45,012 nt of DNA from Hydrogenophilales bacterium. GTDB taxonomy: Bacteria > Pseudomonadota > Gammaproteobacteria > Burkholderiales > Thiobacillaceae. Positions within the stretch are counted from its first letter, which is position 1. The number at the start of each line of letters is the position of its first letter. The notes below the pieces were generated by a model. The model was not told the DNA's origin. It searched no databases and saw only the letters and a program-made list of their open reading frames with translations. Location of the stretch: positions 1 through 45,012 of the forward strand of contig JAGXGP010000128.1 in the NCBI GenBank assembly GCA_024636775.1. The letters run 5' to 3'. Shown here piece after piece: positions 3,550-35,741 of this stretch. The translations under genes were made by a program, and so were the position numbers.

Positions 3550-3622
3550 CCAGCAGACCAGGGAAACGTTCTGGTCGATTGCATGACGAAAACCACTTGA
3601 TATCAACCTTAGGAAAGCACCC

Positions 3623-3988: not shown

Positions 3989-4085
3989 GTCGCGTTTCGT
4001 CCCGGTTGGTCCGAGGGCGGCTCTAGCCCCAATAGACACTTTTCGACAATACCTGAACTTCCGATGTTGGCAGATTCTGGTAGTG

Positions 4086-5783: not shown

Positions 5784-5822
5784 GGTGAGGTGTGATGCCA
5801 GAAAGCGTGAATTGTAGCGGGT

Positions 5823-7348: not shown

Positions 7349-7907
7349 GCAGTTCTTTCCATTCTCCGGGCTGCAGGGCGTCGAGCGTCCATTCGCCGAT
7401 GGCAGCGCGGATCAGGCGCAGGGTAGGGAAGCCGACTTTGGCTGTCATGCGTCGCACCTGGCGATTTTTGCCTTCCTTGATAATGAGTTCGATCCAGTTT
7501 GTGGGGATGGCTTGCCGAAACCGGACCGGGGGATTGCGCGTCCACAGGCACGCAGGTTCGGCAATACATCGAACCTGCGCCGGCTGTGTAACAAAGTCGC
7601 CCAGGTCGACGCCGTGCCGCAAGGGCTCCAGCACGGTCTCATCCGGCGTGCCTTCCACCTGCGCCCAGTAGATTTTGGGCAGTTTGTGTTTGGGATCGGC
7701 AATCCGACTCTGGAGCGCGCCATCATCGGTTAAAATCAGCAGGCCTTCACTGTCCGCATCCAGACGCCCGGCCGCATACATGCCCGGTAGCGCGAGGTGA
7801 TCACGCAAACCCTGCCAGCGCCCTTCCGGGGTGAACTGGCTCAGTACCCCATAGGGTTTGTTGAAAAGAATCAGGCGCGACACGCTTCGGAGGGGGTAAA
7901 TCCCCAT
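7341..7907 (-). CDS. rluE: 23S rRNA pseudouridine synthase RluE-type
   Basis: This is an RsuA/RluB/E/F-family pseudouridine synthase without an S4 domain. It opens with [20 protein letters not shown] and carries the catalytic Asp in [16 protein letters not shown]. The C-terminal [10 protein letters not shown] motif is present. Length (about 189 aa) and neighbours match RluE, which modifies U2457 of E. coli 23S rRNA. The start is uncertain: ATG 7907 is chosen; ATG 7925 and GTG 7883 are alternatives, and none has a good ribosome-binding site. The track start at 8093 would run into icd and is rejected. The gene diverges from icd, so their promoters must overlap the 5' ends of both genes. Confidence 0.92.
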
Positions 7908-7926
7908 TTTAACGTTTCGAGACATC

Positions 7927-9180
<1,254 letters not shown>

Positions 9181-9307
9181 TTTTCCGGCTGCCACGATGG
9201 CCGGTTGAAGCGCATGCTGCACTGATTTGTCGTAGACACGGAGCGTTTGGAAAAGCGATTGTGGACCAGCTCTTCCAGAGATTGCAGTGATGTTAATTCG
9301 GTAGCAT

Positions 9308-9331
9308 CGGAATATTTTTCAGACTATTCCG
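9308..9331. repeat. inverted repeat upstream of the DUF305 gene
   Basis: CGGAATA and TATTCCG form a perfect 7-bp inverted repeat with a 10-nt gap, about 120 nt before the DUF305 gene. It could be a regulator site. The rest of the 268-nt gap between icd and that gene holds nothing I can name; the ORF at 9247-9552 is a shadow without family features. Confidence 0.35.
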
Positions 9332-9448
9332 ACAACCCTTTCAGCATTGCCCAAGCCGCGCCGGCTGACCGAAATGGTATGGTGAACGCGAGTTTGAGCA
9401 GTACAGCAGACTCGTATTTAGATCACCTCAAAGCTGAAAGGAGCTGTG

Positions 9449-9901
9449 ATGGATCACTATGCAAAGTTTGGCGCGATGATCGCTACATCCACTATCGTGA
9501 TGCTGGTGTTGATGTATTTGAATACGTATCAGCTGGATCATGTGTTCTTTAGTGAGACGCGGGCTTACATGGCGTTGGTAATGGGTGCCTCCATGGCTAT
9601 CATCATGTTGGGCTTCATGAAGAAGATGTATGCCAATCGGAAGGCGAATATTGCTATCTTTATTTTTAGTGGCCTTGTGTTCGTGCTTGCGCTCTGGTTG
9701 GTCCGTAGTCAGGAAACGGTAGAAGATGTGTCCTGGATGAAGGCCATGATTCCGCACCATTCCATCGCCATTCTCACGAGTGAGCGTGCACATATTTCGG
9801 ATCCGCGAGTCAGAGCGCTTGCCGATAGCATCATCAAGGCCCAGCGTCAGGAAATTGATGAGATGAAAATGCTGATCAAGGACATTGAAGCCAGACAATA
9901 A
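9449..9901 (+). CDS. DUF305-domain membrane protein
   Basis: I chose ATG 9449 with a clear AAGGAG ribosome-binding site 5 nt upstream; the track GTG at 9446 is one codon earlier. The 150-residue protein has three hydrophobic segments in its first 95 residues (about 7-24, 36-54 and 66-84). The C-terminal part has MIPHHSIAILTSERA and a following helical stretch, the His-His pattern of DUF305 proteins, which are linked to metal handling. DUF305 genes often lie next to copper-resistance genes, but none is here. The function is not known. It ends before a strong bidirectional terminator. Confidence 0.75.
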   Translation: MDHYAKFGAMIATSTIVMLVLMYLNTYQLDHVFFSETRAYMALVMGASMAIIMLGFMKKMYANRKANIAIFIFSGLVFVLALWLVRSQETVEDVSWMKAMIPHHSIAILTSERAHISDPRVRALADSIIKAQRQEIDEMKMLIKDIEARQ

Positions 9902-9955
9902 GCTTCAGCATCGTGGGTCAGCAACTTGCCGCTGGTTAGTTCGTGCATCCGACAA

Positions 9956-9987
9956 TGAAAAATCCCCGCTTTAGCGGGGATTTTTCA
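9956..9987. terminator. bidirectional intrinsic terminator
   Basis: AAAAATCCCCGC-TTTA-GCGGGGATTTTT is a long perfect stem with A-tract and T-tract on both sides. It serves the DUF305 gene on the plus strand and the cold-shock gene on the minus strand. Confidence 0.93.
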
Positions 9988-10000
9988 TTCAGCTCGACAA

Positions 10001-10207
10001 TCAGGCTTGCGGCTGGATGGCTGAAGCTTGCTTGCCTTTTGGCCCCTGGCTGACTTCGAACGTGACTTTCTGGCCTTCTTTCAGTGTTTTGAAGCCGTCG
10101 CTTTGTATAGCGGAGAAATGTGCGAACACATCCTCGCCGCCGTCATCAGGCGTAATGAAACCAAAACCCTTGGCGTCGCTGAACCACTTGACAGTACCTG
10201 TTGCCAT
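10001..10207 (-). CDS. cold-shock domain protein
   Basis: The 68-residue OB-fold protein binds single-stranded RNA/DNA. RNP1 is KGFGFI (residues about 14-19) and RNP2 is DVFAHFSAI (about 26-34). Length is typical for CspA-family proteins. The start has a very strong GAGGAGGAAG ribosome-binding site. The minus-strand region upstream (10208-10440) is long and AT-rich toward its far end, as expected for the long structured leader of csp mRNAs, but I could not place the promoter. Which paralogue this is cannot be told from the window. Confidence 0.95.
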
Positions 10208-10553
10208 TCAAACTTCCTCCTCGGTGTGACAGTAAACATCACCGTGTCTAACCAAACCACGATGGCGGCGACGTGACGGCTTGGTTTCTTTGGCCGTCGG
10301 CCTGAATTCAAGCGCGCTACCCGGTCGTGCCCTGCGGTAATGCCAAGCCTGTAAGGATCTTGAAACCAAACTTTTTGCTTTTTACTACTGCGTTCGAATT
10401 TTTACAAGTATAAACCGATAAAAAACAAAGGCCTTTGCAGGATTGATGTTTACTTTTAACGTACCGGAAAATGGCGTACCGCGCAGGTTCGTCTTGTGCG
10501 GTCAAGCGCCAGGGCGGCGGCGACGCTAGGACGGATGCGGTAGCATGCGGTCC
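10208..10553. other. intergenic region between csp and earP
   Basis: This 346-nt stretch separates divergent csp and earP. It holds the csp ribosome-binding site next to 10207 and an AT-rich block at about 10365-10460 that may contain promoters. I see no convincing ORF, RNA gene or large repeat. Confidence 0.5.
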
Positions 10554-11699
10554 ATGCGCATCACCTGGGACATTTTCTGCAACGTCATCGACAATTACGG
10601 TGACGTTGGCATTGCCTGGCGGTTGGCGCGCGGGCTGGTCAAGGAACATGACCTCGCCGTTCGCTTATGGGTTGATGACCTGCAGGCGTTCCAGCACATT
10701 TGGCCGGCTGTTGCGGTCGATGCGGATCAGCAGGTTTGCGAAGGAGTGAGGGTCTGTGCGTGGTGCACGCCGTTCGTCACAACCGAGCCGGCGCAAGTCG
10801 TGATCGAGGCGTTTGGCTGTGCCTTGCCGGAATCCTATTTGACGGCGATGAGCGAGCGCGCACCCGCGCCTGTCTGGATCAATCTTGAATACTTGAGTGC
10901 CGAAGCCTGGGTGGCAGGGCATCACCGGCTGCCGTCGCCCCATCCGCGATTGCCGCTGACCAAATACTTTTTCTTTCCCGGCTACACGCCGGATACCGGC
11001 GGCTTGCTGGTCGAGAACGACTTGGCCGACAAGCGTGCGACGTTTCTCGATACGCATCTGCCCGCATTCTGGCGCCAGTTTGGTCTGGAACCACCCGCGA
11101 CAGACGAATTGCGGGTGTCGCTGTTTGCCTATGAAAACCCTGCGTTGCCTGCCTTGCTCGATGCTTGGGCAGCTGATGCCCGACCCGTCACTTGTCTGGT
11201 GCCAGTAGGTCGGGTGATTCCGCAATTGGCAGCCTGGCTGGAAGTTTCCGATTTAAAGGCGGGCGAAGTGCACCAGCGCGGAGCCTTGCAGTTGCGGATC
11301 GTGCCGTTCACCGATCAGGATGCGTATGACCACTTGCTGTGGGCGTGCCATCTGAATTTCGTGCGTGGTGAGGATTCCTGCGTACGGGCGCAATGGGCGG
11401 CGCGCCCGATGGTGTGGCAGGCCTATCCGCAAGATGAGCAGGCACACTGGGAAAAACTGGACGCATTTCTGACGCGCTATACAGCGGACATGGATGGCGT
11501 CTCGGCAGACGCGGTGAGTGCGCTGTGGCGACACTGGAATGGTATGGGCGATGCGGCTGAAATGGCCAGGTGCTGGGCCAACTGGCGTGCCAGGCAGACC
11601 GCAATTGAGCAGTATGCAGCTGCGTGGTGTGACCGCCTCAGGCTGGCAGGGCGGCTGACCGACAAGCTGGTGGAATTTGCCGAAAACAAGTTAAAATAG
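10554..11699 (+). CDS. earP: EF-P arginine rhamnosyltransferase
   Basis: EarP transfers rhamnose from dTDP-rhamnose to Arg32 of elongation factor P. The 381-residue protein begins MRITWDIFCNVIDNYGDVG, matching the conserved EarP opening with the catalytic Asp in NYGD. The donor-binding region includes FVRGEDSCVRAQWAARP with the conserved Glu-Asp pair. I chose ATG 10554 over ATG 10545 because family members start close to WDIFC; neither has a strong ribosome-binding site. It is directly followed by efp, the usual arrangement in EarP-containing beta- and gammaproteobacteria. Confidence 0.95.
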   Translation: MRITWDIFCNVIDNYGDVGIAWRLARGLVKEHDLAVRLWVDDLQAFQHIWPAVAVDADQQVCEGVRVCAWCTPFVTTEPAQVVIEAFGCALPESYLTAMSERAPAPVWINLEYLSAEAWVAGHHRLPSPHPRLPLTKYFFFPGYTPDTGGLLVENDLADKRATFLDTHLPAFWRQFGLEPPATDELRVSLFAYENPALPALLDAWAADARPVTCLVPVGRVIPQLAAWLEVSDLKAGEVHQRGALQLRIVPFTDQDAYDHLLWACHLNFVRGEDSCVRAQWAARPMVWQAYPQDEQAHWEKLDAFLTRYTADMDGVSADAVSALWRHWNGMGDAAEMARCWANWRARQTAIEQYAAAWCDRLRLAGRLTDKLVEFAENKLK

Positions 11700-11743
11700 C
11701 GAGCTTTCTCAACCTCTTAGCGCTCCAGTAGCAGGAAACATCC

Positions 11744-12304
11744 ATGAAAATCGCACAGGAACTCCGCGCCGGCAACGTCGTGATGGTCGGTCAAGACCCA
11801 ATGGTGGTAGTCAGAGCCGAATTCTCGAAATCCGGCCGCAACTCATCCGTCGTCAAGATGAAACTCAAGAACCTGCTCAATGGTTCCGGTACCGAAACGG
11901 TTTATCGCGCCGACGATAAATTCGAAATGGTGTCGCTGGATCGCAAGGACTGTACTTATTCCTACTTCGCCGATCCGCTGTATGTGTTCATGGATACGGA
12001 CTACAACCAGTATGAAATCGAAGCCGACAACCTCGGCGATGCGCTGAACTACCTGGACGATGGCATGCCGCTGGAAGTGGTGTTCTACGACGGCAAGGCA
12101 ATTTCAGTCGAAATGCCAACCACCGTAGTCCGCGAAGTTGAATACACCGAGCCCGCAGTGCGTGGCGATACTTCAGGCAAAGTCATGAAGCCTGCCCGCA
12201 TCAAGCCCACCGGATACGAACTGCCCGTGGCTGCATTCGTGGATATCGGCGACATGATCGAAATCGACACCCGAACCAACGAATTCAAGCGTCGCGCAAA
12301 CTAA
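11744..12304 (+). CDS. efp: elongation factor P, Arg32 type
   Basis: EF-P binds the ribosomal E site and relieves stalling at polyproline. The 186-residue protein has the three-domain layout and normal length. The tip loop reads [10 protein letters not shown], placing Arg at position 32 where EpmA-type organisms have Lys. That is the residue modified by EarP, encoded directly upstream, so enzyme and substrate agree. The 44-nt gap from earP includes GTTAAAATAGCG over the earP stop, which could be a -10 region for extra efp transcription. Confidence 0.97.
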
Positions 12305-12339
12305 TTCCGTCCCGCATTGAAACCGATACTTTGTCGGCT

Positions 12340-12465
12340 GCGCCTTACCCGCAAGGGGTAGGCCGTGGTTGTAAAGATGCTAAAGCATCAACATCCTCGC
12401 TCTGCCGTGCTACAGCACTGTCTTCGGCTTGCCTTCGCGCCTCGGTTCCAATGCGAACCGGAATA
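12340..12465. repeat. hairpin-rich intergenic sequence, possible dispersed repeat
   Basis: Within about 125 nt there are three perfect short inverted repeats: GATGCT-AA-AGCATC at 12376-12389, GTGCT-AC-AGCAC at 12407-12418 and CGGTTC-CAATGC-GAACCG at 12443-12460. A partial one (CCTTACCC with GGGGTAGG) lies at the left. No ORF explains it. Such clusters often belong to genome-wide short repeats, but a second copy is not present in this window. Confidence 0.4.
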
Positions 12466-12484
12466 GCATCCCATTAATTCAAAC

Positions 12485-12515
12485 AAAAGGCAGCTTCGGC
12501 TGCCTTTTGTTTTTT
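12485..12515 (+). terminator. intrinsic terminator after efp
   Basis: AAAAGGCAGC-TTCG-GCTGCCTTTT followed by GTTTTTT: a 10-bp stem with a stable UUCG loop and a T-tract on the plus strand. Confidence 0.93.
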
Positions 12516-12567
12516 GGTCGGCCGCTGACGGCGTTAAAATAGCGCTTAGATTTTTCGTTACCCGCTC

Positions 12568-16005
<3,438 letters not shown>

Positions 16006-18654: not shown

Positions 18655-19257
18655 TTAGAAGCGCGAGCCGGGCAGCTTCAAAAACTCAATTTCATCGTCG
18701 GTCGAAGGCCGCCTCAGTATCGCGTTGCGATGCGGAAAACGCCCGAAGCGCGCCACCACGTCCCGATGCTGCCGCGCATAGTTCAAAAAGTCATCGAAGA
18801 TTGCACGTTCTTCAATCGCGGCTTCGTCTGCCAGTTTCTCGTACAGCGCAACCGATAACTCCTGCATTTCATTCGATTCGGCGTGTTCCAGTGGCAGATA
18901 CAGAAACACGCGTTCGATCGGTGTCAGATGCTGCTCATCGCCGGCTTTCAGCGCAGCCAGACTCAAGGCCAGGGCCTGCGGGTCGGTGGCAAATGCCTGC
19001 GACTGATCGCGATGGATGTGATGTGGAAACTGATCGAACACGATTACCAAAGCCAGCCGGCCGCGGGGGGTGTCGGCCCAGTGATCAAGTTTCCCTGCTG
19101 TTGCCTCAACCAGGGTGTCGGCAAACTGGTCGACTACAGCCTGATCATTGGCCGCCGATTTTGCGAACCACAGCTTGCGCTGCCGGCCGACGATTTCAGT
19201 TGCAGAACCGGATGGACCGAACCAGAAGTCGAGTACGTTTTCAGGTTGAGTCATCAT
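18655..19257 (-). CDS. DUF924 family protein
   Basis: The 200-residue protein begins with VLDFWFGPSG and contains VIVFDQFPHHIHR and VARFGRFPHRNAILRR, the conserved blocks of the DUF924 family. It is probably all alpha-helical and cytoplasmic; no signal peptide is visible. The function of the family is unknown. Two adjacent ATG codons (19257, 19254) could start it. It is the last ordinary chromosomal gene before the accessory island. The 226-nt gap to the next gene shows nothing recognisable. Confidence 0.85.
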   Translation of the reverse strand: MMTQPENVLDFWFGPSGSATEIVGRQRKLWFAKSAANDQAVVDQFADTLVEATAGKLDHWADTPRGRLALVIVFDQFPHHIHRDQSQAFATDPQALALSLAALKAGDEQHLTPIERVFLYLPLEHAESNEMQELSVALYEKLADEAAIEERAIFDDFLNYARQHRDVVARFGRFPHRNAILRRPSTDDEIEFLKLPGSRF

Positions 19258-19483
19258 ACGTAGCAGATTGGGCCAGAGTTGTGCTGTCTTCGTGACTTGT
19301 TATTCTAATGGTCGCACTCACCCATGTACGGAAGTTCAAACTTAGTAGCACGACATGTCTCATGTTCGGCCTAAGCCGTCATACAGATTTCTCTTAATCA
19401 GTCGTTCAACACTCGCCTTTAGCCGACCGCATATGGCGGATCCTGAAGAATGTAGTGAAATGTGGGTTGGCTGTAAGGCATTT

Positions 19484-20107
19484 TTATGCGCCACTGCCAG
19501 CAAATTTTTTCCAGTCTTCATTTTCAACAAGTGTTGACCTGTATATTTTCAGTGACTTACAGCCTTCAATTGTTTTAAGCGTCTTTTTGACATGATCCAC
19601 GACTGAAGCTGGTAGCCACGGGCTTAACGTAATGCGCCTCACTGCTTCTATTGGTAAGGTCACTCGGAAAGTTGGCGCACCTTTCGTATTGGTGCCATAG
19701 AAGAGCCTAAACTCCTTTTCATCAACAAATGCGTAACGTTTCAAAAAAGGGAGGTCAGACTGTAATGGCGCACATCTCCTAAGAGCTTCTATTGTTTTGT
19801 ACTGCACTTCTTCTGCGCGCAATCCAGGTATCGAATTTGCAGCTGCAATTAGCTGACTCTTATCGAACTCTATGCATGCACCGCCGCTTCCATGGGAAAA
19901 AACTCTCCAATGATGGTAGGTTTCCGGTGCCTCAGCGAGGCAAAGAGCGTAAGTGCTAAGAAAATTATTTGCGCGGGCGAACTGATCTATGTAGTAGGAA
20001 TCATTTCTATCGTCCCAGGAAGCAGGGTTTAATAAGACAAGTTCCTTCGATTGCAAGAAGTCGATTAAATAGGGAAGTTCGGTATATCGGCGAAGGGATG
20101 ATTCCAT
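19484..20107 (-). CDS. DUF2971 domain protein
   Basis: The 207-residue protein opens with SLRRYTELPYLIDFLQSK, then LLNPASWDDRNDSYYIDQF and TYHHWRVFSHGSGGACIEFD, matching the DUF2971 family. There is no signal peptide or membrane segment. The family has no established biochemical role; members are frequent in variable and defence-rich regions, which is general knowledge. It diverges from the large Mrr-NACHT gene with a 160-nt spacer, and both have more AT-rich codons than the flanking housekeeping genes, suggesting they arrived together. It may be a partner, regulator or unrelated passenger. Confidence 0.75.
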   Translation of the reverse strand: MESSLRRYTELPYLIDFLQSKELVLLNPASWDDRNDSYYIDQFARANNFLSTYALCLAEAPETYHHWRVFSHGSGGACIEFDKSQLIAAANSIPGLRAEEVQYKTIEALRRCAPLQSDLPFLKRYAFVDEKEFRLFYGTNTKGAPTFRVTLPIEAVRRITLSPWLPASVVDHVKKTLKTIEGCKSLKIYRSTLVENEDWKKFAGSGA

Positions 20108-20274
20108 GGCTAGATCTCAGTTTCTGCGTAGCGCATAACGTCTAAGTGGAGGTTTGGGGGGATTAAGTCGAAAGTCTCACGGCCGGCCGTAACTGTTATT
20201 CGCAGTTCGCCAGTCATCGTAGGCATGTATATCTGCTTATCGCGACTGTATGCTCCTAGAAAACCCTATTGGCC

Positions 20275-23200
20275 ATGATACCAATTACGACCATGAACAG
20301 TCCTCAGCTCTCTACGTCGATTCAAGCACCGCCGGATTGCGTCCCTGCTATGGGCCCAATCGAAACCGTCTCGCAGGTACTTCCCTTTGGCGAATTGACG
20401 TGGGAAAACTTTGAACGGCTTTGTCATCGGCTCGCCAGCCAAGATAACGAGGTCGAACATAGCGCGCGATATGGCTTAGCCGGCCAAGCGCAGCAGGGCA
20501 TCGATATTTTTGCGCGTAAGAAGAATGGGAAGTACGACACGTGGCAGGCGAAACGCTACAAAAAGTATTTGCCGAGTCAATTGAAGTCTGCGGCCACTGC
20601 CTTTTTGAAAGGTAATTGGGTTGCTAGATCTGAGACGCTTTTCATCGCTGTCCAGGCCTCGCTTTCCGACACTAAGATCCAAGATGAGATCGAGACGCAG
20701 ACCAAGCGTCTCAAGAAAAAAGGTGTGCTACTGGTTGTTCTAGGGGGCGAAGAGCTTAGCAGGCGCCTGCATGCCTACCCACACTTGGTCCATGACTTCT
20801 TCGGTCGCTCTTGGACTAAGGCGTTCTTTGGGGACGCTGTAAATCAGGATCTGCTTGCCACCTTGGATGGTGCGGAGATCGCTAGCGTTCGCAAACAACT
20901 TGCGCAGGTATATCAAACACAGTTTCATCTTCTTGATAGTGGCGCAATCGAAAGTAACGATTCATTGATCGGGTCTGATATAGAGCGGGAACGCGGACTC
21001 CTAGCCCGCTTTACGCGCCCCGACATTCAGGTCCGGGAATTGCGCGACGCAACCGCTACCTCCGCGCCCCACGATTCTGCAGATATGGGGAATGCGTCAA
21101 GGGACAACCAGGCTCAACGTGAGTCCGTGCGTTTGAACAAGGGGGTCGAAAGAATCCGCAGAATTCCAATCGCTGCCTGGCTCACGCAATCAGATCAGTT
21201 AGCCTTACTTGGAAATGCGGGGACTGGGAAAAGCACGGTGCTCCGGTGCATTGCGCTTGATCTGATTGGCGACCAAGCTGGTCTACCGGAGATTGCCTCA
21301 CGCTGGGGAAATCTGATACCTATATATATATCTTTCGCCAAGTGGGCTCGCGCCGCCGAGCATGCTGGGGGGCAGATTGGTTTGAAGGACGTAGTTCGCT
21401 CATCCTTGCAGCCACTGTTGACGACCCCGGACCTTGTCGGACTTCTGGACCGCGCGATTAATGAGCATCGCATTTTGTTGCTCGTAGACGGACTCGACGA
21501 ATGGTCAAACGAGCAGGCAGCACGAACAGCTTTGCAAACACTTCTGACTTTTGTCGGTACGCATCGGATTCCCGTAGTTGTAACCGCAAGGCCGCGCGGC
21601 TTGAACAGAATTGGCGCCATTCCAAGCAATTGGTCTATCGGAACGCTGGCCCCCCTGTCTGCGGATCAACAGAGGATGTTGGTGCTTCGGTGCCTTGGGC
21701 TGACGGTGAAAGAAGAAACGAGCGCGACTGCTATTCGTGATCACTCCCTCAATCATGTGGCAGAACGCTTCTTTCGCGAGCTAAAACGCGAATCCGGTTT
21801 GGCAACGCTTGCTGAGATACCTCTTCTCTTGGTCAGTCTGCTCGCGCTTGCGATGCGTCGAATCACTCTCCCTAAACAACGCGCTCAAGCACTCGAACAG
21901 CTGATCGACATCCTGTTGGAAGTCCACCCGCAAAGCCGCGCGACTGCGGCCGGTGACGTCCAAGCGAGGTTCAATGTCGCTGGAGATATTGAAGTGAGGA
22001 AAGGAGCCATCGCAGCGTTGGCGTTTGCATCGCGTCTCGAAGGAGGAGACGCTGGATACCCAACGTCAAGGGCGAAGGAGAAAATACGAGAGTTTCTTGC
22101 CGATCCGCACACTGCATTTCCCCCAGATAAGGCGATACAGGCCGCAAATGAAATACTGGCAGTTAACGCCGAAACCATTGGACTGCTGGTAGAAAAAGGG
22201 CCAAGCGAGATAGGGTTTGTGCATGCCAGCCTAGAAGAATATTTGTCAGCGATTCATATACAAAGCTGGCAACTCGAAACGCTGGTTTCTTTCATTCGAG
22301 ACAACGCAACAAACGCGAGGTGGCGGAATGTCATCGGTAATTTGGTTGCGATAACTAGACGCCCTACTGAGATTGATCAATTGGTGGAAGCTATAGAGTC
22401 GGTAGAAACGGACGTTCTTGGAGAAACGGCAAGAAACCAACTTCTGACGGACATTGCATTCTCGCCGTCGAAGATGTCGTCCACCACTGCTACTCGCCTA
22501 GGTTTGAGCAGCATTGCGTTGGTTGAGGGATCGGGGGCTGTTAGCGAGCGCACGGATATTCTCTCTTCCGTGTTGAATGGAACAAACCATCCCATCCTCG
22601 GGCCAATCTTGCTGGACCGGGTGCTAACTTGGGCACCCAAAAGTCTGGACTACACCGAGCAGTTATTTGAAGTATTGGGAACTTGGGATCAGGCTCCGGA
22701 CCTGCTGTCGACCTTAAAACGGGGGCTCACTGAACAGACAAGGTGGAGTCAACGCTCGGCCGCCAGAGCGATGGCAAAGGTCTTTGGTGGAAACAAAGAG
22801 GTACAGCAGTGGCTTATCGGCATTCTGAACGGAGTCACTGACCTGCAGACAACGGGCGCTGCGATTGAAGCGCTTGTAATCGGTTGGCCATCGGCGGATG
22901 GTCTTGAGCAGGCCATTGCCGATGCAGGTGCGTCGTTAAAACCCAGTCTGCGTTTGGTTGCGATCTGGGCCTTGGCCAAATTAGGGCAACACAACGAAGG
23001 ACATTTATCTGAACTGCTTGAAATGCTTGGAGAGCCGAGTGTTCTGGACTACTGGGATCGGCCATTAGCAGCCGAAGCGCTGTCGACTGCATGGTCCAAT
23101 CATCCAACGGTGATTGAACACTGCATCAGGAGTGTTCAGAGGTACGGCGTACGTAGGCGTACCTTGGATCGCGAGATGAGCATTGATTTTCTACTCGGCT

Positions 23201-25176
23201 GCTCCACCGCGAACCAGAGTATTCGTAGGTGGATCGTTGATGAGCTTGAGGACGATCATCCATTTATTTCGGCTCATGGTAGTTGGGATCGTCTCGCCCC
23301 ATTTGCACAAGTTGACAACACCATAAAAGAATCCTTGGTGGTTGCAATCACCGATAAAACGACTGCGGCCGTAGACTATAAAGTATGCGGCCTTATTGCA
23401 GCGCTTAAGGACCCCAGGCTTAAGTCCTTCGCAATTCAGAAAGTGAAAAGTGCTGACGCTGCATGGTCACAGGCTTGGTACCTTGACGCGCTCCTCAATG
23501 GATGGCCATTAGACCAAGACGTACTGGATCTTGTGGCTGAGATTCGGGTCTGGCCTGATGAAAAGTTGGCCGAGCTGGTGACTCTCCTTCCCAAAATTCT
23601 GACCAATCGTCAAGAGTGCAGAAGCCGCCTATTAGCTTTGCATCGATCACAGAAATCTCATCGCTTGCATGCTTACCCCCATATTTTTGCAGAGATAGGA
23701 TGCGATTCGACTGACCAAGAAGTTGTCGACGAACTGGTAAAGGCTGCAAAATCAAACCGTTCATGGGGGGGCTCCGAATCGCTAATACGCAAATTCAGCG
23801 CCAATCCGTCGGTTCAAGCTTTGGCCCGCGAGCGTCTGCTCGAACGAGCTCCCCCGCTCTTTGCGATCGCTGACGCTTACTCCCACGTTCAGGACCTTCG
23901 TGCGAATGTGCTTAATCGAATCGGCGCGTTGCCGACTTCGCTACGTTACATTCTTGCGGAGGTCGCGAGCATTGAAGGTGGCCATCACGACGTTATGGCA
24001 GAACTTCTGAATCGCTATGACTGGGAAGTGGACGGAGATTTGAAAGTTCTCTTTTCGATTCGGTATTGCGAGCATCTGAAGTCATCGAAGGGCAACGCCG
24101 CGAAGGCAATTGAGACGTTACTGGCAGACGTACGTTCGGTGGGGCCGGATTATGAGGAGCGTCGTGCAGCGGCTGTGGCTGGTCTTATAACGCTTGGCGC
24201 CATGATGGAGTTCGGTAAGCTTCGCGAGGATAACAAGCCATTGACCATTATTGTCGGGAAGTACGATCAAGCGAGTGGCGCCCTCTTAGAGCTTATCGCT
24301 CGAAGGTGGGATGAGTTGAAATTGCAGCTCGGTGAAGATCTGGTCAACCGGATTGGGCGGCACTCTTCGATGGAAACCGTATGGGACTCTCTTGCCCCAT
24401 TCCTCGTGTGGAACGATCGGTTGCGTCAAGAGTTCGTCAGCTATTGCGAGCTAGCCCATGCATCCCTTGGTATTCCATCCTTGAGAGCATTAGCGCAAGA
24501 ACGTCCCAATAGTGAATTGCTTGAAAGTCACTGCTTGCACGCCGTTGAGTACATACATCAGTCAAATGGGCGCTCTCCTTGGGCTGCCAATGCACTGGCA
24601 TTCGAAGCGGCATACTTCCTGCGCGATCAATTTGGCGGAAAGGCTGACATTTCTCGCCGCCTGCATGATGTCTTCGCCATGCGGCGTGATGCAGAGAGCG
24701 CGATGATGCTTGCAATCTACAATCCTGAGCATCACGCTTTGGGTACGCTGAACGTTTCCCCTCTAGAGCTTGGGACTCAACATCACTCATGGGCTGTCGC
24801 TTGCACCGTCTCATCCGCCAAACAAAATAGTGCTGAGTTCGTCGAAGTCCTGCGCGCGATGATCAATCGTGACGCACATAGTCTGTGGGACTTTCAGGCC
24901 TACACGAATATTGCCGTACTGGAGCGACTTTCTCGCGAACCTGAAGCGTTAGCGATTATTGTGCGCGCTCTGGCTGGTGAAGTTACGAACAGTGAAGCGG
25001 CCAGCCTGCCGCGTTACCTTGCGTCGATTACACCATTCGATGAAGCCACACTCCTCACTCTTCGAAGTAAGTTGGACTTTTTTAGCCGCAGAATAGGTGT
25101 GGTTGTCGCTGGGTACGATGCACTCGCAGATGAGATCCGGCCCATTTCCCATTCACTGTTGGATGCGCTTCGTTAA
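20275..25176 (+). CDS. Mrr-like nuclease / NACHT STAND NTPase with helical repeats
   Basis: This protein of about 1633 residues has three parts. At the N-terminus (about 35-165) is a restriction-endonuclease-like domain with GIDIFA and WQAKRY, the D...QxK active-site pattern of Mrr-type PD-(D/E)XK nucleases. At about 300-560 is a NACHT NTPase with Walker A LLGNAGTGKST (about 311-321) and Walker B ILLLVDGLDEW (about 398-408). The last 1000 residues are helical, HEAT/TPR-like. This effector-NTPase-sensor order is that of antiviral STAND systems, which degrade DNA after sensing phage proteins; the role here is inference. The start is uncertain: ATG 20275 is used; TTG 20269, ATG 20293 and ATG 20350 are possible, none with a good ribosome-binding site. 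The frame is intact. Confidence 0.85.
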   Translation: MIPITTMNSPQLSTSIQAPPDCVPAMGPIETVSQVLPFGELTWENFERLCHRLASQDNEVEHSARYGLAGQAQQGIDIFARKKNGKYDTWQAKRYKKYLPSQLKSAATAFLKGNWVARSETLFIAVQASLSDTKIQDEIETQTKRLKKKGVLLVVLGGEELSRRLHAYPHLVHDFFGRSWTKAFFGDAVNQDLLATLDGAEIASVRKQLAQVYQTQFHLLDSGAIESNDSLIGSDIERERGLLARFTRPDIQVRELRDATATSAPHDSADMGNASRDNQAQRESVRLNKGVERIRRIPIAAWLTQSDQLALLGNAGTGKSTVLRCIALDLIGDQAGLPEIASRWGNLIPIYISFAKWARAAEHAGGQIGLKDVVRSSLQPLLTTPDLVGLLDRAINEHRILLLVDGLDEWSNEQAARTALQTLLTFVGTHRIPVVVTARPRGLNRIGAIPSNWSIGTLAPLSADQQRMLVLRCLGLTVKEETSATAIRDHSLNHVAERFFRELKRESGLATLAEIPLLLVSLLALAMRRITLPKQRAQALEQLIDILLEVHPQSRATAAGDVQARFNVAGDIEVRKGAIAALAFASRLEGGDAGYPTSRAKEKIREFLADPHTAFPPDKAIQAANEILAVNAETIGLLVEKGPSEIGFVHASLEEYLSAIHIQSWQLETLVSFIRDNATNARWRNVIGNLVAITRRPTEIDQLVEAIESVETDVLGETARNQLLTDIAFSPSKMSSTTATRLGLSSIALVEGSGAVSERTDILSSVLNGTNHPILGPILLDRVLTWAPKSLDYTEQLFEVLGTWDQAPDLLSTLKRGLTEQTRWSQRSAARAMAKVFGGNKEVQQWLIGILNGVTDLQTTGAAIEALVIGWPSADGLEQAIADAGASLKPSLRLVAIWALAKLGQHNEGHLSELLEMLGEPSVLDYWDRPLAAEALSTAWSNHPTVIEHCIRSVQRYGVRRRTLDREMSIDFLLGCSTANQSIRRWIVDELEDDHPFISAHGSWDRLAPFAQVDNTIKESLVVAITDKTTAAVDYKVCGLIAALKDPRLKSFAIQKVKSADAAWSQAWYLDALLNGWPLDQDVLDLVAEIRVWPDEKLAELVTLLPKILTNRQECRSRLLALHRSQKSHRLHAYPHIFAEIGCDSTDQEVVDELVKAAKSNRSWGGSESLIRKFSANPSVQALARERLLERAPPLFAIADAYSHVQDLRANVLNRIGALPTSLRYILAEVASIEGGHHDVMAELLNRYDWEVDGDLKVLFSIRYCEHLKSSKGNAAKAIETLLADVRSVGPDYEERRAAAVAGLITLGAMMEFGKLREDNKPLTIIVGKYDQASGALLELIARRWDELKLQLGEDLVNRIGRHSSMETVWDSLAPFLVWNDRLRQEFVSYCELAHASLGIPSLRALAQERPNSELLESHCLHAVEYIHQSNGRSPWAANALAFEAAYFLRDQFGGKADISRRLHDVFAMRRDAESAMMLAIYNPEHHALGTLNVSPLELGTQHHSWAVACTVSSAKQNSAEFVEVLRAMINRDAHSLWDFQAYTNIAVLERLSREPEALAIIVRALAGEVTNSEAASLPRYLASITPFDEATLLTLRSKLDFFSRRIGVVVAGYDALADEIRPISHSLLDALR

Positions 25177-25240
25177 ACGTCGCGCCCAATGTAAAGGCTG
25201 GCGAATGAGGGACGCGATCAGCTTTACGTTTTGATTCCGG

Positions 25241-25252
25241 TGGAATATTCCA
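25241..25252. repeat. 12-bp palindrome after the NACHT gene
   Basis: TGGAATATTCCA is a perfect palindrome 65 nt after the NACHT stop codon. Together with the inverted repeats at 25338-25365 and 25378-25461 it makes the 274-nt gap unusually rich in dyads. Confidence 0.35.
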
Positions 25253-25337
25253 TACCCGTTAATGGCCGGTTTGGCCGAGTGCCGGACATTTTTCTATCAA
25301 CCCGTCAGATGGCTTGGGGTCGGCTGGAGTCATTGAA

Positions 25338-25377: not shown

Positions 25378-25461
25378 TTGTTAGGTAAGAAACTATCGCT
25401 GGCTTTCAAAACGCATTTCGCCACATCAACTCCCCTACCAAGGGCCCTTGTTACCTAACAA
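25378..25461. repeat. 11-bp perfect inverted repeat ending in the tauE gene
   Basis: TTGTTAGGTAA at 25378-25388 is the exact reverse complement of 25451-25461, which encodes the last codons and stop of the TauE/SafE gene. It is an inverted copy, so it is not a target-site duplication, but it could mark an old rearrangement at the island edge. Confidence 0.4.
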
Positions 25462-26353
25462 GATACTTCACCCCAATGCCCAGCAGCACACTTGCCAGCA
25501 AGATACGCAACCAGCTTTCCTTGAAATGTCGGCTGATGTGCGGGCCCAGAAAGGCGCCTGCTACGGTGCCGATCAGCATGGGAATCAGCAGTCCCCAATC
25601 CAGCTGTACGCCCATGGCCATGTAGTTGGCAATGGAGGCCGACGAGCTGATGAAAATGGCCAACGCTGCCGTGCCTGCCACCACAAACATGGGCAGGCGC
25701 AGCACCATGGCCATGAACGGCACCAACAAAAAACCACCGCCCACACCCAGGGCCGAGGCGAGGGCGGCAATGGTGAATCCGGCCGCAAATGCAGTGGCGG
25801 GACGATATCCAAAGACCTCTCCACCAAACTCGAACTCAAGGCGACGCCATGACCAGGGTCGGCGCTGCACGCCTACTGAGCAAGTTGGCGCACCTTGAAG
25901 TACCAGACCTTCGAAGGCGGCGGATGCACGGGAGGAAGGGCCTGACAATTTGCTGGACCGGCGCAGGGACCACGCTAGTTGCGCAGCGATGAACAGCACC
26001 AGAATCGCGAACGCAGGTTTGAATTCGGAGAGGTCGGCCAGGTAATGCATGGATAAACGGCTACCCACCAACGCACCCAGCAAGCCACCCGTTGCCAGGA
26101 TGAATCCCAGCCGGAGCACGACGCGGCACTGCCGCAGGTAATGGGGTACAGCGATCAGTGGGGTGGCCAGGGTGAGTACCTGAGCCATGGGTTTGACCTG
26201 ATTGGCGTCGGTGAGTCCTAACACGGAGATCAGACCAAACGAGGCCAGAATCCCCCCGGCCGCCCCCACCAGCGAAAACACCAAGCCGACCAGTCCGCCC
26301 CAGGCAAACGGCAGCAACAGATCTGGCCAAAGTGTTGTCAGTTCGATGGGCAT
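25451..26353 (-). CDS. TauE/SafE family membrane exporter
   Basis: The 300-residue inner-membrane protein shows eight or so hydrophobic segments in two halves, with the glycine-rich repeats LVGLVFSLVGAAGGILAS near the N-terminus and LASALGVGGGFLLVPFMA in the second half. These are the hallmarks of the TauE/SafE/YfcA family, proposed to export sulfite, sulfoacetate or other small organic anions. A sulfite exporter would make sense in a sulfur oxidiser with aprA, but the substrate cannot be read from sequence. A basic cytoplasmic linker of about 50 residues (130-180) joins the halves. A CDGSH gene follows closely upstream on the same strand (33 nt). Confidence 0.88.
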   Translation of the reverse strand: MPIELTTLWPDLLLPFAWGGLVGLVFSLVGAAGGILASFGLISVLGLTDANQVKPMAQVLTLATPLIAVPHYLRQCRVVLRLGFILATGGLLGALVGSRLSMHYLADLSEFKPAFAILVLFIAAQLAWSLRRSSKLSGPSSRASAAFEGLVLQGAPTCSVGVQRRPWSWRRLEFEFGGEVFGYRPATAFAAGFTIAALASALGVGGGFLLVPFMAMVLRLPMFVVAGTAALAIFISSSASIANYMAMGVQLDWGLLIPMLIGTVAGAFLGPHISRHFKESWLRILLASVLLGIGVKYLVR

Positions 26354-26386: not shown

Positions 26387-26638
26387 TCAGAAAATATCGT
26401 CGGGCAGGTCGTTGTGCGAACCGTCACAAAAGGGTTTGGTTTGGGTGTGCTTGCAGTTGCACAGCCAAACAGTGGTTTTCTCTTCGACTACAAACGACAC
26501 GGGTTCCATATCGGTGCCTTCGTGCGAGCCGTCACAAAACGGTTGCGTCATCGAGCGACCACACGAACACCACCAGTATTCACCGGGTTCGAGTTCAAGT
26601 TCGGCGGGGTTTTTATCAAAAACAACGGGTTCGGACAT
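26387..26638 (-). CDS. twin CDGSH iron-sulfur protein
   Basis: The 83-residue protein has two complete CDGSH motifs, WCSCGRSMTQPFCDGSH and LCNCKHTQTKPFCDGSH, each able to bind a [2Fe-2S] cluster with three Cys and one His. Tandem CDGSH proteins of this size are common in bacteria and are thought to carry electrons or sense redox state; no specific partner is known. There is no signal peptide, so it is cytoplasmic. It may be co-transcribed with the TauE/SafE gene 33 nt downstream. Confidence 0.93.
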   Translation of the reverse strand: MSEPVVFDKNPAELELEPGEYWWCSCGRSMTQPFCDGSHEGTDMEPVSFVVEEKTTVWLCNCKHTQTKPFCDGSHNDLPDDIF

Positions 26639-31610: not shown

Positions 31611-31782
31611 GTGCGGCGTGCGCGGGAGTTTAGTGGCCTTCACTATCGACCATATCGTGGGATTGATCAAACAGGGTGATCAACCCGGACGACCGTTGCG
31701 CCTTGCTCGGGCGAGTCATGGCGCGTCCGGCTCGGTATCCGGTGGCGATGACTTTAATTGTAATTGTGACGTAAACCGGAAT

Positions 31783-31829
<47 letters not shown>

Positions 31830-32361
31830 AATGAAAGCAAGAAGTTAACTCTTTTATAAACAAAGTATAGCGCCAACCGGCATCACGCAATAACCGGAAA
31901 AACGCTACGGTTTTGAGCAATGCTGGCAACTTGGGTCACGATTTGGTCACATGAGACAACTGGAAACGAATTTGCCGTGTGTGTTCGGCTGCTTGTGTTA
32001 TTCGCGTGTTTAATGGCCATGGAAGTCGTTGGATGTCTTAGTGGAATGGCGGATTAACAGACGAAACATCATCTAGTCAGCCTTTATAAGTCAATGATTT
32101 GTCTATCCCGCACATTGATATTTTTCGCCAGAAAGCTTGAAAAACAAGAACAGAACTTTGAAGTGTTTACGATTTGGCTACGCACTGGAAATGAAGCCTG
32201 CAAATTTAACTAAATTCGTCGAATAAATTTACAGTCGCATTCCATCTCATGAAATAGTTCATAAACAATCAATCAGTTAACCGTTGCGCATGTAAATTGC
32301 TTAACTGAAGCGGTAGTGCATCAGATATACACATAACTTAAAATTCTTAAAGGGGATGAGA
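31830..32361. other. AT-rich stretch inside the left end of the element
   Basis: This 532-nt segment has no ORF with coding character. It is clearly more AT-rich than the chromosome outside the repeat. It contains CAGTTAA...TTAACTG (32274-32307), a 7-bp inverted repeat, and a weak promoter-like pair (TTAACT, 17 nt, GATATA) before the PEP-CTERM gene. Integrase arm sites or excision sites may lie here but I cannot point to them. Confidence 0.45.
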
Positions 32362-32946
32362 TTGGCCAATAAAAGAAATGCAGCATTAATGGTTGTTATG
32401 CTGAGTGTGATGAGTGCAACCGAGGCTAGTGCCCTCAATATTTCAAGTGCTTTGGGCTCAGGAGGATACGACGTGGTCTCGGTTACCGTGGCCACCGAAG
32501 GGATAGTTGATATGTCTTTCACGGGGGGAGGCTTCACTTACGCGAGCTTTTCATTGTTCGATGCTGCGGGTGACCATCTGATAACGAATGAGGAGTCCAA
32601 TAGTTCCTATTTCCCTAAGATTACTCAGACCCTCGCTCCAGGAGCATATTCATTGCTTGTTACCACGTGTTGTTATTCCGGCAGTCTAGTCTTGAATCAA
32701 GGCGGTTATTTAACGAATACCGACGGATTCAACTACGGATACTACTTTAATAGCGGCAACGCCACCCTTGCAGGGATGGCGGCATATATTAGTGTTCCCA
32801 ATGCCCACTGGGAAGGTAATCCGTATACGCTAACAATCACTGGCGCAGTACCTGAACCGCAAGCCTATGTCATGTATCTGGCCGGCCTTGGATTGGTGGG
32901 AGCCATTGCTCGACGCAAGAAGCGCGTAGAGATATGGAAAATATAA
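32362..32946 (+). CDS. PEP-CTERM sorting-domain protein (cargo gene)
   Basis: The 194-residue protein has a signal peptide (LMVVMLSVMSATEASA), a beta-rich extracellular domain with YDVVSVTVATEGIVDMSF, resembling DVUA0089-type modules, and a C-terminal PEP-CTERM signal: VPEPQAY, a hydrophobic helix YLAGLGLVGAIA and a basic tail RRKKR. PEP-CTERM proteins are processed by exosortase and exported in biofilm or exopolysaccharide-producing Gram-negatives. I prefer the TTG at 32362, because AAAGGGG lies 6 nt before it but directly abuts the track ATG at 32356. The protein is unusual as cargo on such a small mobile element. Confidence 0.85.
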   Translation: MANKRNAALMVVMLSVMSATEASALNISSALGSGGYDVVSVTVATEGIVDMSFTGGGFTYASFSLFDAAGDHLITNEESNSSYFPKITQTLAPGAYSLLVTTCCYSGSLVLNQGGYLTNTDGFNYGYYFNSGNATLAGMAAYISVPNAHWEGNPYTLTITGAVPEPQAYVMYLAGLGLVGAIARRKKRVEIWKI

Positions 32947-32955
32947 GTGGTATTC

Positions 32956-33056
32956 GTTATCCACATATCCACGCCGCTCGAAGCCCCGGCGGGCTGCCCC
33001 TAGGCAAGCCCAGAAGCCGGGGGCGCGAAGCGCGGCGGGGTGGGTATGTGGGTAAC
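32956..33056 (+). repeat. 101-nt long imperfect hairpin
   Basis: The outer arms GTTATCCACATATCCAC (32956-32972) and GTGGGTATGTGGGTAAC (33040-33056) pair at all 17 positions if two G-U pairs are allowed on the plus strand. Inside, GCCGC pairs with GCGGC, GCCCCGGC with GCCGGGGGC (one bulge) and GGGCTGCC with GGCAAGCCC (one bulge) around the loop CCTA, giving about 38 pairs in all. There is no T-tract, so it is not an ordinary terminator. It could be a single-strand origin or, in a satellite phage, a packaging-signal hairpin; both are inference. Confidence 0.75.
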
Positions 33057-33071
33057 GCGGCGCCGAGCTAG

Positions 33072-33100
33072 TTGACTTACTCTTTTCCTGTCTGTTAAAT
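33072..33100 (+). promoter_or_regulatory. promoter of the rep gene
   Basis: TTGACT, a 17-nt spacer and TTAAAT, with transcription expected near 33107. The resulting leader to ATG 33247 is about 140 nt long and rich in complementary segments. Confidence 0.7.
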
Positions 33101-33101
33101 T

Positions 33102-33217
33102 TTGGTCGTCTGTCACAAGACCAATAGAGCAAGAACATCCCGGCCGAAAGGACGGTGCCAGCAAAACCAAGGGCACCCCGGACATAGCAAATGACGGTGT
33201 TAAAACCGTCTTGTGAC
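33102..33217 (+). promoter_or_regulatory. structured leader of rep with competing pairings
   Basis: GTCACAAGAC (33112-33121) is perfectly complementary to GTCTTGTGAC (33208-33217). Other pairs are TTGGTC/GACCAA (33102-33124), GGTGCC/GGCACC (33154-33177) and GACGGT/ACCGTC (33193-33210). ACCGTC can also pair with an earlier GACGGT at 33151-33156 and shares 3 nt with the long-range arm, so several folds exclude each other. This is what copy-number control by attenuation or antisense RNA would look like; no known riboswitch was recognised. Confidence 0.5.
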
Positions 33218-33246
33218 TTCATCGTTAATCAACGTATGGAGTTGTT

Positions 33247-34362
33247 ATGTCTGATTCGTCATCCTTATCGCCTGAATTGCTTTCAGCATCTGAAGGTATT
33301 CCCACACCAAATACTCAACACGGCCAAGCTGCGGACTGCACAGCAGTGGAGGCGCGTGTCTGCACGCGCTCCGCTGTGGTGGAGTCCGCAGCCCCCCGTA
33401 TAGTAACTACGGGGGGAAACCTATCTCCCCAGAATTCAACAGACCCTCACGGCACAACTGCTCATGTCGACTGGTTTGCCTGCACGCTCTCAACTCGAGG
33501 CAAAACCACCTATGACGACGAGCAGCTGATTTTTATTTCTGAGCTGCTTCGGTTTCTCGCCATCAAAGAATCGCAGATCGTCGAAGGTGGTAAAGGTTGG
33601 TTTGGCTATAAGCGCATGGCCAAGATCCTGAGTCCGGACGGACAGGTTAACTACGGCCTACTCGCTTACGGGGGGGAAAGCCAAAAGGGGAGTGTCCATG
33701 TAGAGATCAACGGCCAAGGTTGTGCGGCGGTTGTTCATTGGGAAGAAATCGTGGAATGGGGTGAGAAGCGCAACGCAGTAATCACGCGGCTCGACCTAGC
33801 ACACGATGATTTCACCGGTGACGAGATCACCGTTGCTGTCGCACTGGATTGGTTTCAGGAAGGACGATTCAACAGTAATGGACGGCCACCAGCAGGGGAG
33901 CTAAGAGATGATCTTGGCTCAGGCAAGGGGAAAACGTTGTATGTGGGTAGCCGCACCGGAGGTAAGTACCTACGGATTTACGAGAAGGGAAAACAATTAG
34001 GAGACACGTCCAGTCCGTGGACTCGGGTTGAGGTCGAACTGCGCAACCAGGATCGTGTGATTCCGTGGGATGCGCTGACTCGTCCCGGCACCTACCTTGC
34101 TGGAGCCTTCCCATGTCTTGCATTTCTGTCAGCCGTGCAGGAAAAGATTCGCACCATCGCCAAGTCCGCACAGACCACCCTGACGGTTGCGACGCATCAT
34201 CTTCAAAAGTCCGGCGGCAAGCTGGTGGACTTGCTGATGAACATGCACAACGAAGATGCCGCGGCCGTAGTCGAGAAAATCCGCGGGGAAGGTATCCCTC
34301 GTCGACTTTCGGCTTACGCTTCCTACTTGCTACCCCCGGCGCAACTCGCGGATAAACCATGA
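33247..34362 (+). CDS. replication initiation protein (Rep_trans / RstA-like)
   Basis: The 371-residue protein starts at ATG 33247 with GGAG 6 nt upstream. The first 70 residues are low-complexity and are encoded by strong DNA hairpins. From AHVDWFACTL onward it shows the pattern of phage/plasmid replication initiation factors (Rep_trans): VHVEINGQGC, then ITRLDLAHDDFTGD, then GGKYLRIYEKGKQLG with the Tyr that may form the nick-site bond, and WTRVEVELRN. Proteins of this family start rolling-circle replication in pT181-type plasmids and in filamentous phages such as CTXphi (RstA). Its stop overlaps the HTH gene start (ATGA). It should replicate the excised circle. Confidence 0.85.
   Translation: MSDSSSLSPELLSASEGIPTPNTQHGQAADCTAVEARVCTRSAVVESAAPRIVTTGGNLSPQNSTDPHGTTAHVDWFACTLSTRGKTTYDDEQLIFISELLRFLAIKESQIVEGGKGWFGYKRMAKILSPDGQVNYGLLAYGGESQKGSVHVEINGQGCAAVVHWEEIVEWGEKRNAVITRLDLAHDDFTGDEITVAVALDWFQEGRFNSNGRPPAGELRDDLGSGKGKTLYVGSRTGGKYLRIYEKGKQLGDTSSPWTRVEVELRNQDRVIPWDALTRPGTYLAGAFPCLAFLSAVQEKIRTIAKSAQTTLTVATHHLQKSGGKLVDLLMNMHNEDAAAVVEKIRGEGIPRRLSAYASYLLPPAQLADKP
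33330..33416 (+). repeat. two adjacent strong hairpins inside rep (candidate origin)
   Basis: Hairpin 1 (33330-33390) has TGCGGACT/AGTCCGCA outer arms, then CACAGC/GCTGTG, then GGA/TCC, then GCGCGTG-TCTG-CACGCGC, 24 pairs with small bulges. Hairpin 2 (33392-33416) is CCCCCCGTA-TAGTAAC-TACGGGGGG, 9 perfect pairs. In pT181-type plasmids the double-strand origin lies inside the rep gene and is a cruciform, so this is a candidate nick site; loop TAGTAAC is a plausible target. Confidence 0.65.
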
Positions 34363-34721
34363 TTCTCTGGTCAGTTCAGGAAGTGGGTCGCCAGCTTGGC
34401 GTGTCTGCACGGACAGTGTTTCGGTTGATCGGGCGCGGAGAGTTGCCAAGGGCCAAATTGGGACGTTTGGTGCGTGTTCCCGCAGATGCAGTACTGGAAT
34501 ACGTAGCGCAGTTAGTTGCACACGGGCAAAATAGCGCTTGCGTGATGTCGGTGGCGTGGAAGGAGGTAAAACCATGCCATACAGACGAAAGGACTCGCCA
34601 ATTTGGTGGGTCAGTATCAACAACGCAAGCGGCAATCGAGTTAGACGCTCTACTGGCACGCAAGACCGAAAGGAAGCCGAAGCCCTCGAAGCAAAGTGGA
34701 AGCTGGAGGCCCACCAAGTGA
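34359..34721 (+). CDS. AlpA-like helix-turn-helix protein (putative excisionase)
   Basis: The first 50 residues, with WSVQEVGRQLGVSARTVFRL and LGRLVRVPADAVLEYV, form the winged HTH of MerR/excisionase-type (HTH_17) proteins. It starts on the ATGA overlapping the rep stop. The ORF continues to 120 codons and overlaps the integrase gene by 148 nt in another frame; only the N-terminal part has clear family features. Position between rep and integrase suggests control of excision (Xis) or of integrase expression. Confidence 0.75.
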   Translation: MILWSVQEVGRQLGVSARTVFRLIGRGELPRAKLGRLVRVPADAVLEYVAQLVAHGQNSACVMSVAWKEVKPCHTDERTRQFGGSVSTTQAAIELDALLARKTERKPKPSKQSGSWRPTK

Positions 34722-35650
34722 AGCACTGGGGTAAGAAGCCAACACACACCTTTGAGCAGCTTATGGTGTCGCACTACAACGCTGTTGCAGGCGATTTGCG
34801 TAGTCCCGAGCGGATACTGTCGGCGATCCGGCGGCTGAAGCCGTTTTTCGAAGGGAAGGTGGTTGAAGAACTTAGACGTTCTGATATCACTTTTTATATC
34901 GAGAAAAGGAAAGCTGATGGGATTTCGAATGCCACGATAAACCGGGAACTGGATGTACTTTCTGCTGCGATCAACCATGCCCGCTACAAATGGGAATGGG
35001 AGATCACGAACCCGGTAGAAAGAATGTCGCTCAAGGAACCGGAAGGCCGACTGCGTTGGTTAAGCCGTGCTGAAGCGGATGTTTTGATTCGTGAGGCGGA
35101 ACAAGAACCGAAGTCGCCGCACTTGGCTGATTTCATTCGACTGGCCCTGAATACGGGTTGTCGGAAGAATGAATTGCTGAAACTGGAATGGGATCGGGTG
35201 GATTTGAAAGAGAACCGCCTCTACCTCGAAGGACAGCACACCAAGAATGGCAAACGGCGCTTGATCCCGCTGAATGTAGAAGCCCGCCAAGCGCTTTTAG
35301 GGCGTACTCGTTTTCGCGCCCAGCATTGCCCAGAGTCTCCTTGGGTTTTTGCGCATAGGAGCGGGGAGCGGGTGCAGTACATGCAGAACGGCTATGGGTC
35401 GGCATGTGTGCGTGCAGGGATCAAGGATTTTCGAGTCCATGACATGCGCCACACATTTGCTTCATGGCTGATAAGTGCAGGTGTTCCGTTGGCAGAATTG
35501 CGTGATTTGCTCGGCCATTCAACCATTGAAATGACTGAACGCTACGCACACTTGGCACCGGATAACCACGTAAGGGCTGTCAGTGTTCTAGATCGGTTGT
35601 CACGATCCAGTCACGAAGTAGGGACTAGTGCGATTCAACAAGTTAGTTAA
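34574..35650 (+). CDS. int: tyrosine recombinase integrase
   Basis: I start at ATG 34574, preceded by GGAAGGAGGT, rather than the track ATG 34538. The 358-residue protein has an N-terminal arm/SAM-like core-binding part and a complete catalytic domain: Arg in NTGCRKNELL, Lys in HTKNGKRRLIPL, HxxR in VHDMRHTFASWL, and His and the nucleophilic Tyr in LLGHSTIEMTERYAHL. All active residues are present. The gene ends 12 nt before the right att copy in tRNA-Pro, the normal position for a tRNA-targeting integrase. It should carry out integration and excision of the element. Confidence 0.95.
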   Translation: MPYRRKDSPIWWVSINNASGNRVRRSTGTQDRKEAEALEAKWKLEAHQVKHWGKKPTHTFEQLMVSHYNAVAGDLRSPERILSAIRRLKPFFEGKVVEELRRSDITFYIEKRKADGISNATINRELDVLSAAINHARYKWEWEITNPVERMSLKEPEGRLRWLSRAEADVLIREAEQEPKSPHLADFIRLALNTGCRKNELLKLEWDRVDLKENRLYLEGQHTKNGKRRLIPLNVEARQALLGRTRFRAQHCPESPWVFAHRSGERVQYMQNGYGSACVRAGIKDFRVHDMRHTFASWLISAGVPLAELRDLLGHSTIEMTERYAHLAPDNHVRAVSVLDRLSRSSHEVGTSAIQQVS

Positions 35651-35662
35651 CTCGTTGAAATA

Positions 35663-35741
<79 letters not shown>

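Follow-up and report, generated by a model that had tools for sequence, protein, structure and literature searches.

The gene at positions 20275–25176 of the window (the whole 45,012-nucleotide stretch analysed here, the Hydrogenophilales contig JAGXGP010000128.1) very likely encodes a single-gene, NLR-like (bacterial NACHT) anti-phage receptor, in which a HEAT sensor, a NACHT switch and an Mrr nuclease would together bring about abortive infection. A preliminary description had proposed an antiviral STAND protein, and what we observed—domain profiles, invariant catalytic and Walker residues, carriage on mobile elements, and Avs2, restriction and CBASS genes beside homologues—supports that proposal. 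The features of the gene are as follows:

20275–25176, forward strand: whole gene, Mrr-NACHT-HEAT protein of 1633 aa (intact ORF; full-length homologues of 1626–1754 aa)
20380–20832, forward strand: Mrr-type PD-(D/E)XK nuclease domain, residues ~36–186 (Mrr_cat match and invariant residues among homologues)
20413–20415, 20503–20505, 20545–20547 and 20551–20553, forward strand: nuclease catalytic codons for E47, D77, Q91 and K93, respectively
21160–21690, forward strand: NACHT NTPase, residues ~296–472 (Pfam NACHT; model matches to NLRC4, NLRP3 and NOD2)
21211–21234, forward strand: Walker A motif GNAGTGKS, residues 313–320
21478–21501, forward strand: Walker B motif LLVDGLDE, residues 402–409
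21691–22374, forward strand: NACHT-associated helical, winged-helix-like region, residues 473–700, with an invariant H650 (Foldseek matches to NLRC4; alignment of 11 members)
22342–25173, forward strand: C-terminal HEAT-like alpha-solenoid, putative sensor, residues ~690–1633 (AlphaFold2 model; Foldseek; HEAT_2)

The gene comes from a draft assembly that is broken into 159 contigs and is 87% complete. Within this assembly it is a single unbroken ORF of 1633 codons running from an ATG at 20275 to a stop at 25176, with no internal stop codon, just as had been described. Two other starts are available—an in-frame TTG at 20269, which would give 1635 aa, and an ATG at 20293—and inspection for ribosome-binding sites revealed none clear enough to choose among the three.

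Comparative work was based on an alignment and tree of 11 full-length members: those of Bradyrhizobium, Aromatoleum, Enterobacter, Pantoea and Streptomyces, two from IMG/VR contigs, three from genomes of the same order, and the window protein itself. On the window protein alone the nuclease call is weak: Pfam Mrr_cat gives a sub-threshold match to the full protein (E 0.05, residues 40–98) and E 0.0038 with the N-terminus alone, and the score lies below the gathering score. The call becomes firm when family members are used, because Mrr_cat matches eight of the 11 homologous N-termini (best 8.5e-6) and residues E47, G75, D77, Q91 and K93 (that is, Q91-x-K93) are invariant across all 11 divergent members. 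The GID...QAK motif, on which an Mrr-like nuclease had originally been proposed, is real. The secondary structure predicted for the N-terminus (helix 43–56, strands 74–82 and 87–91, helix 100–112, strand 119–127) follows an order that fits a restriction-endonuclease core, at low model confidence: AlphaFold2, working from a five-sequence alignment, models this part poorly (pLDDT ~30–70). Sequence searches of the PDB, with the protein as query and with profiles, returned no nuclease template. The E, D and (Q/E)xK residues of the Mrr/PD-(D/E)XK group are all present in a predicted alpha-beta core, and the nuclease activity is putative.

The central NACHT NTPase, also part of the preliminary description, is well supported. 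Pfam NACHT matches residues 308–472 (E 1.5e-10, 41.6 bits against a cut-off of 26.7) and is present in all six members scanned, while the core Walker residues G313, G318, K319, S320, D405, D408 and E409 are invariant across the 11 members, as are R439 and H650. In the AlphaFold2 model of residues 1–700 the NACHT module is predicted with confidence; among solved structures it is best matched by the animal NLRs NLRC4, NLRP3 and NOD2 (Foldseek, lowest E 1.5e-10), with alignments to NLRC4 that span more than 500 columns. The likeness to animal NLRs lies in the fold of this NACHT-winged-helix module; the animal proteins combine it with a CARD or PYD effector and leucine-rich repeats, whereas here it is combined with a nuclease and a HEAT-like solenoid.

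The solenoid begins at residue ~650–700 and is ~950 residues long, somewhat shorter than the 1000 or so residues of helical repeats first estimated; the all-helical nature of the region is borne out by modelling, by Foldseek and by HEAT_2. Specifically, the AlphaFold2 model of residues 640–1633 is a continuous all-helical alpha-solenoid of ~50 helices (mean pLDDT 77), and HEAT_2 is found by sequence in three of six members (up to 1.7e-6). Since Foldseek matches the solenoid only to generic HEAT-repeat proteins (CAND1, karyopherins), and with low TM-scores, the region is HEAT-like in the model yet has no close match among solved sensors. This large and divergent solenoid is the putative sensing region, and the sensor family appears uncharacterised. 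The profile searches (Mrr_cat, NACHT, Avs) and C-terminal structure prediction that had been put forward as checks thus support a nuclease, a NACHT module and a HEAT-like solenoid.

How does this protein compare with known systems? The preliminary description placed it among Avs and bacterial NACHT defence proteins; the bacterial NACHT half of that placement stands, by virtue of the NTPase, while the profiles do not place the protein in Avs1–5. Like bNACHT proteins, it has a central NACHT domain with Walker A and a NACHT-type Walker B, and an N-terminal effector domain. Among the closest known systems is bNACHT clade 6, in which an N-terminal PD-(D/E)XK nuclease, a central NACHT and a C-terminal helical part are encoded in one gene (PMC12169576). 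The clade-6 proteins bNACHT25 and bNACHT32 depend on their PD-(D/E)XK nuclease for defence, and DNA is degraded on infection (PMC12169576). Clade 6 carries the C-terminal helical domain NCH1, where the window protein seems to have its ~950-residue solenoid instead; this comparison with bNACHT25 is by description rather than by sequence. No Pfam match to NCH1 was obtained in six members, the presence of an NCH1 model in the library being unconfirmed. Proteins with an Mrr_cat nuclease, a STAND NTPase and C-terminal repeats have also been described from P4 satellites (PMC9122126). These share the order of parts and carriage on mobile elements with the window protein, again as compared by description, and may differ from it in repeat class and in NTPase clade.

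Avs1–4 (AVAST), and Avs2 in particular, share the nuclease-STAND-sensor plan; the Avs1–4 nucleases cut phage and host genomes once phage proteins are recognised (PMC12931631). It is nevertheless unlikely that the window protein is one more Avs type proper, with a C-terminus that senses terminase or portal proteins. Such an identity would account for the resemblance of the nuclease to the Avs2 N-terminus and for the Aromatoleum copy, which lies directly behind an Avs2 gene. However, that resemblance is weak and is the only PADLOC match of the window protein (Avs2, residues 43–110, 1.7e-5, where the genuine Aromatoleum Avs2 scores above 1600 bits), and BLASTP of the window protein against the same Aromatoleum Avs2 found nothing significant. 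Moreover, the NTPase is of NACHT type, neither it nor the sensor matches any Avs profile, and the HEAT-like solenoid is unlike the assigned Avs sensors. We therefore rejected membership of Avs1–5.

A bacterial NACHT receptor is the preferred reading. PADLOC (2023) has no profile covering the Mrr-NACHT-HEAT family as a unit, RefSeq labels members just 'NACHT domain-containing protein', and the Mrr nuclease-STAND-repeat architecture has been described; for these reasons we regard the window protein as one more representative, as yet uncharacterised, of a known kind. The earlier suggestion of a possible new subtype accordingly holds in that no named sensor family matches, and does not hold for the architecture, which was already known (PMC9122126, PMC12169576).

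By analogy with characterised relatives, the receptor would sense infection, oligomerise, cleave DNA and abort the infection in the following way. At rest, the HEAT solenoid would keep the NACHT module closed. The solenoid would bind a sign of infection, most probably a conserved protein of the phage, either directly or through a host chaperone, and binding would lead to nucleotide exchange and oligomerisation of the NACHT module. Oligomerisation would in turn bring the N-terminal Mrr-type nuclease domains together, and the clustered nucleases would cleave the DNA of phage and host alike, with no strict requirement for a particular sequence. With its DNA destroyed, the infected cell would die or stall ahead of phage release.

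Conservation along the protein, as judged from the alignment, is what would be expected if the effector and switch stayed constant while the sensor diverged: mean pairwise identity among the 11 members is 42–45% in the nuclease, 36–38% in the NACHT module and 20–25% in most of the sensor. In the tree, the window protein pairs with the Enterobacter IncHI2 plasmid copy (100/100), and the three other same-order genomes cluster with the Pantoea plasmid copy and a viral-contig copy, so that the gene tree, as reconstructed, is incongruent with the species. The distribution is sporadic. At E <= 1e-30, relatives are present in three of 398 other genomes of the same order, and none was found in the congeners searched. 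A phylum-wide search gave partial, weak matches only, and E. coli genomes (near mode) and a first viral scan gave none. The phage records yielded no close homologue, and the viral contigs yielded only the two distant ones from IMG/VR. It is very improbable that the protein is a non-defence STAND regulator or a housekeeping DNA-processing protein that merely shares these domains. NACHT and HEAT domains do occur in other roles, and the defence function is inferred here; against this stand the sporadic distribution, an insertion where congeners have an empty site, an effector-type nuclease and the defence neighbours described below.

Family members occur across several proteobacterial orders, Deinococcus and Streptomyces. 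On a Deinococcus plasmid (L009, 7920–12787) the restriction endonuclease and NACHT parts are annotated as two genes. A split effector was considered and rejected, because the downstream frame is open back into the nuclease gene and a frameshift is likelier than real fission. On a Lysinibacillus plasmid (L075, 6001–8884) a member is broken into several small ORFs. Both look frameshifted or fragmented, through decay or sequencing error. Two further plasmid proteins of ~1050–1080 aa, from Streptomyces rochei (L073, 4935–8084) and Rhodococcus opacus (L074, 5959–9201), share the Mrr-type N-terminus and the HEAT repeats at the C-terminus, and Pfam detects neither NACHT nor any other NTPase in them; a switch-free relative of the Mrr-NACHT-HEAT family is possible. 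A broader and more tentative idea, which we consider rather less probable than its opposite, is that the window protein belongs to an unnamed family of NACHT receptors whose ~950-residue HEAT solenoid, unlike the assigned Avs and bNACHT sensors, responds to phage cues of a new class by driving an Mrr nuclease, with the actinobacterial nuclease-HEAT proteins suggesting a sensor-effector variant without the switch. The Mrr-NACHT-HEAT proteins are in any case a widely scattered, horizontally moving addition to the bacterial relatives of NLRs, and the identity of the trigger would reveal what a HEAT-type NLR sensor reads in phage.

Carriage on mobile elements is common in the family. Full-length relatives lie on Enterobacter, Pantoea and Streptomyces plasmids (the carriers include conjugative and other plasmids), the Bradyrhizobium copy lies in an integrase/primase island adjoining guaA, and in the two IMG/VR contigs the gene adjoins recombinase or integrase genes. 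The Enterobacter plasmid homologue has the accession WP_063863497.1. More generally, homologue contigs carry recombinases, integrases or a terminase (neighbours named from translations). Defence genes are found nearby in several cases. In Aromatoleum toluolicum (L002), Avs2 (3420–7943) and the NACHT gene (7995–12899) stand head-to-tail with a 51 bp gap; the upstream gene matches PADLOC Avs2 over its whole length (1681 bits, E=0), and the pair are perhaps two different nuclease-STAND receptors in one operon. In genome G789 the neighbourhood of the family gene includes a NERD-UvrD helicase, a WYL protein and a type III restriction enzyme (6.5e-131). On the Enterobacter IncHI2 plasmid, TIR and CBASS-phospholipase genes precede the family gene, and transposases lie in between. 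Since most homologues are on plasmids, prophage-like or integrase-bearing elements, where competition between elements is common, the same machine could be aimed at plasmids, satellites, competing integrative elements or host damage instead of lytic phage, guarding its carrier element or cell. We regard this target as improbable: general antiviral use is indicated by the copies that are chromosomal and by neighbours such as Avs2, restriction and CBASS genes, and relatives of the same architecture stop phage (PMC12169576).

In the window, the anti-phage candidate lies in a variable insert together with a divergent neighbour:

19258–25313, no strand: variable insert comprising the DUF2971 and NACHT genes (from comparison with the closest genome, G020, and empty congener sites)
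19484–20107, reverse strand: DUF2971 protein of 207 aa, divergent neighbour of the NACHT gene, PADLOC candidate PDC-S31 (2e-13; profile searches)

The insert is ~6 kb in size, with a GC content of 51.6% against 58–60% in the flanks. In 19 of the 24 congeners searched, the flanking DUF924 (18655–19257) and CDGSH (26387–26638) genes are 17–49 bp apart in the aligned ends. In G020, DUF924 and a TauE-CDGSH pair are ~21.5 kb apart, with Tad-pilus and RHS-type genes (named from translations) in between; there, the place of the DUF2971-NACHT insert is taken by a Tad/Flp pilus cluster together with an RHS-repeat protein of 1741 aa (L060/L061; G020:C19:33000-57500). The DUF924-CDGSH interval is a variable site at which the NACHT gene looks recently acquired, and acquisition was very probably horizontal. 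No direct repeats of at least 9 bases bound the insert, and a sigma-70 promoter scan over it found none.

A two-gene system with DUF2971 was rejected, because no DUF2971 gene is obvious in the homologue neighbourhoods examined (annotation tables, ORF lists) and the protein is nearly absent from congeners and plasmids. The TauE-type permease gene at 25451–26353 is probably a separate, earlier addition to the site, since it is shared with G020 and the other congeners lack it in the DUF924-CDGSH interval. Further downstream, the window contains an integrative element in tRNA-Pro (element 31785–35741; tRNA 35665–35741), with a tyrosine integrase at 34538–35650 and a Rep_trans replication-initiation gene at 33247–34362; its other attachment site is a ~45–52 bp copy of the tRNA-Pro end at 31778–31829.
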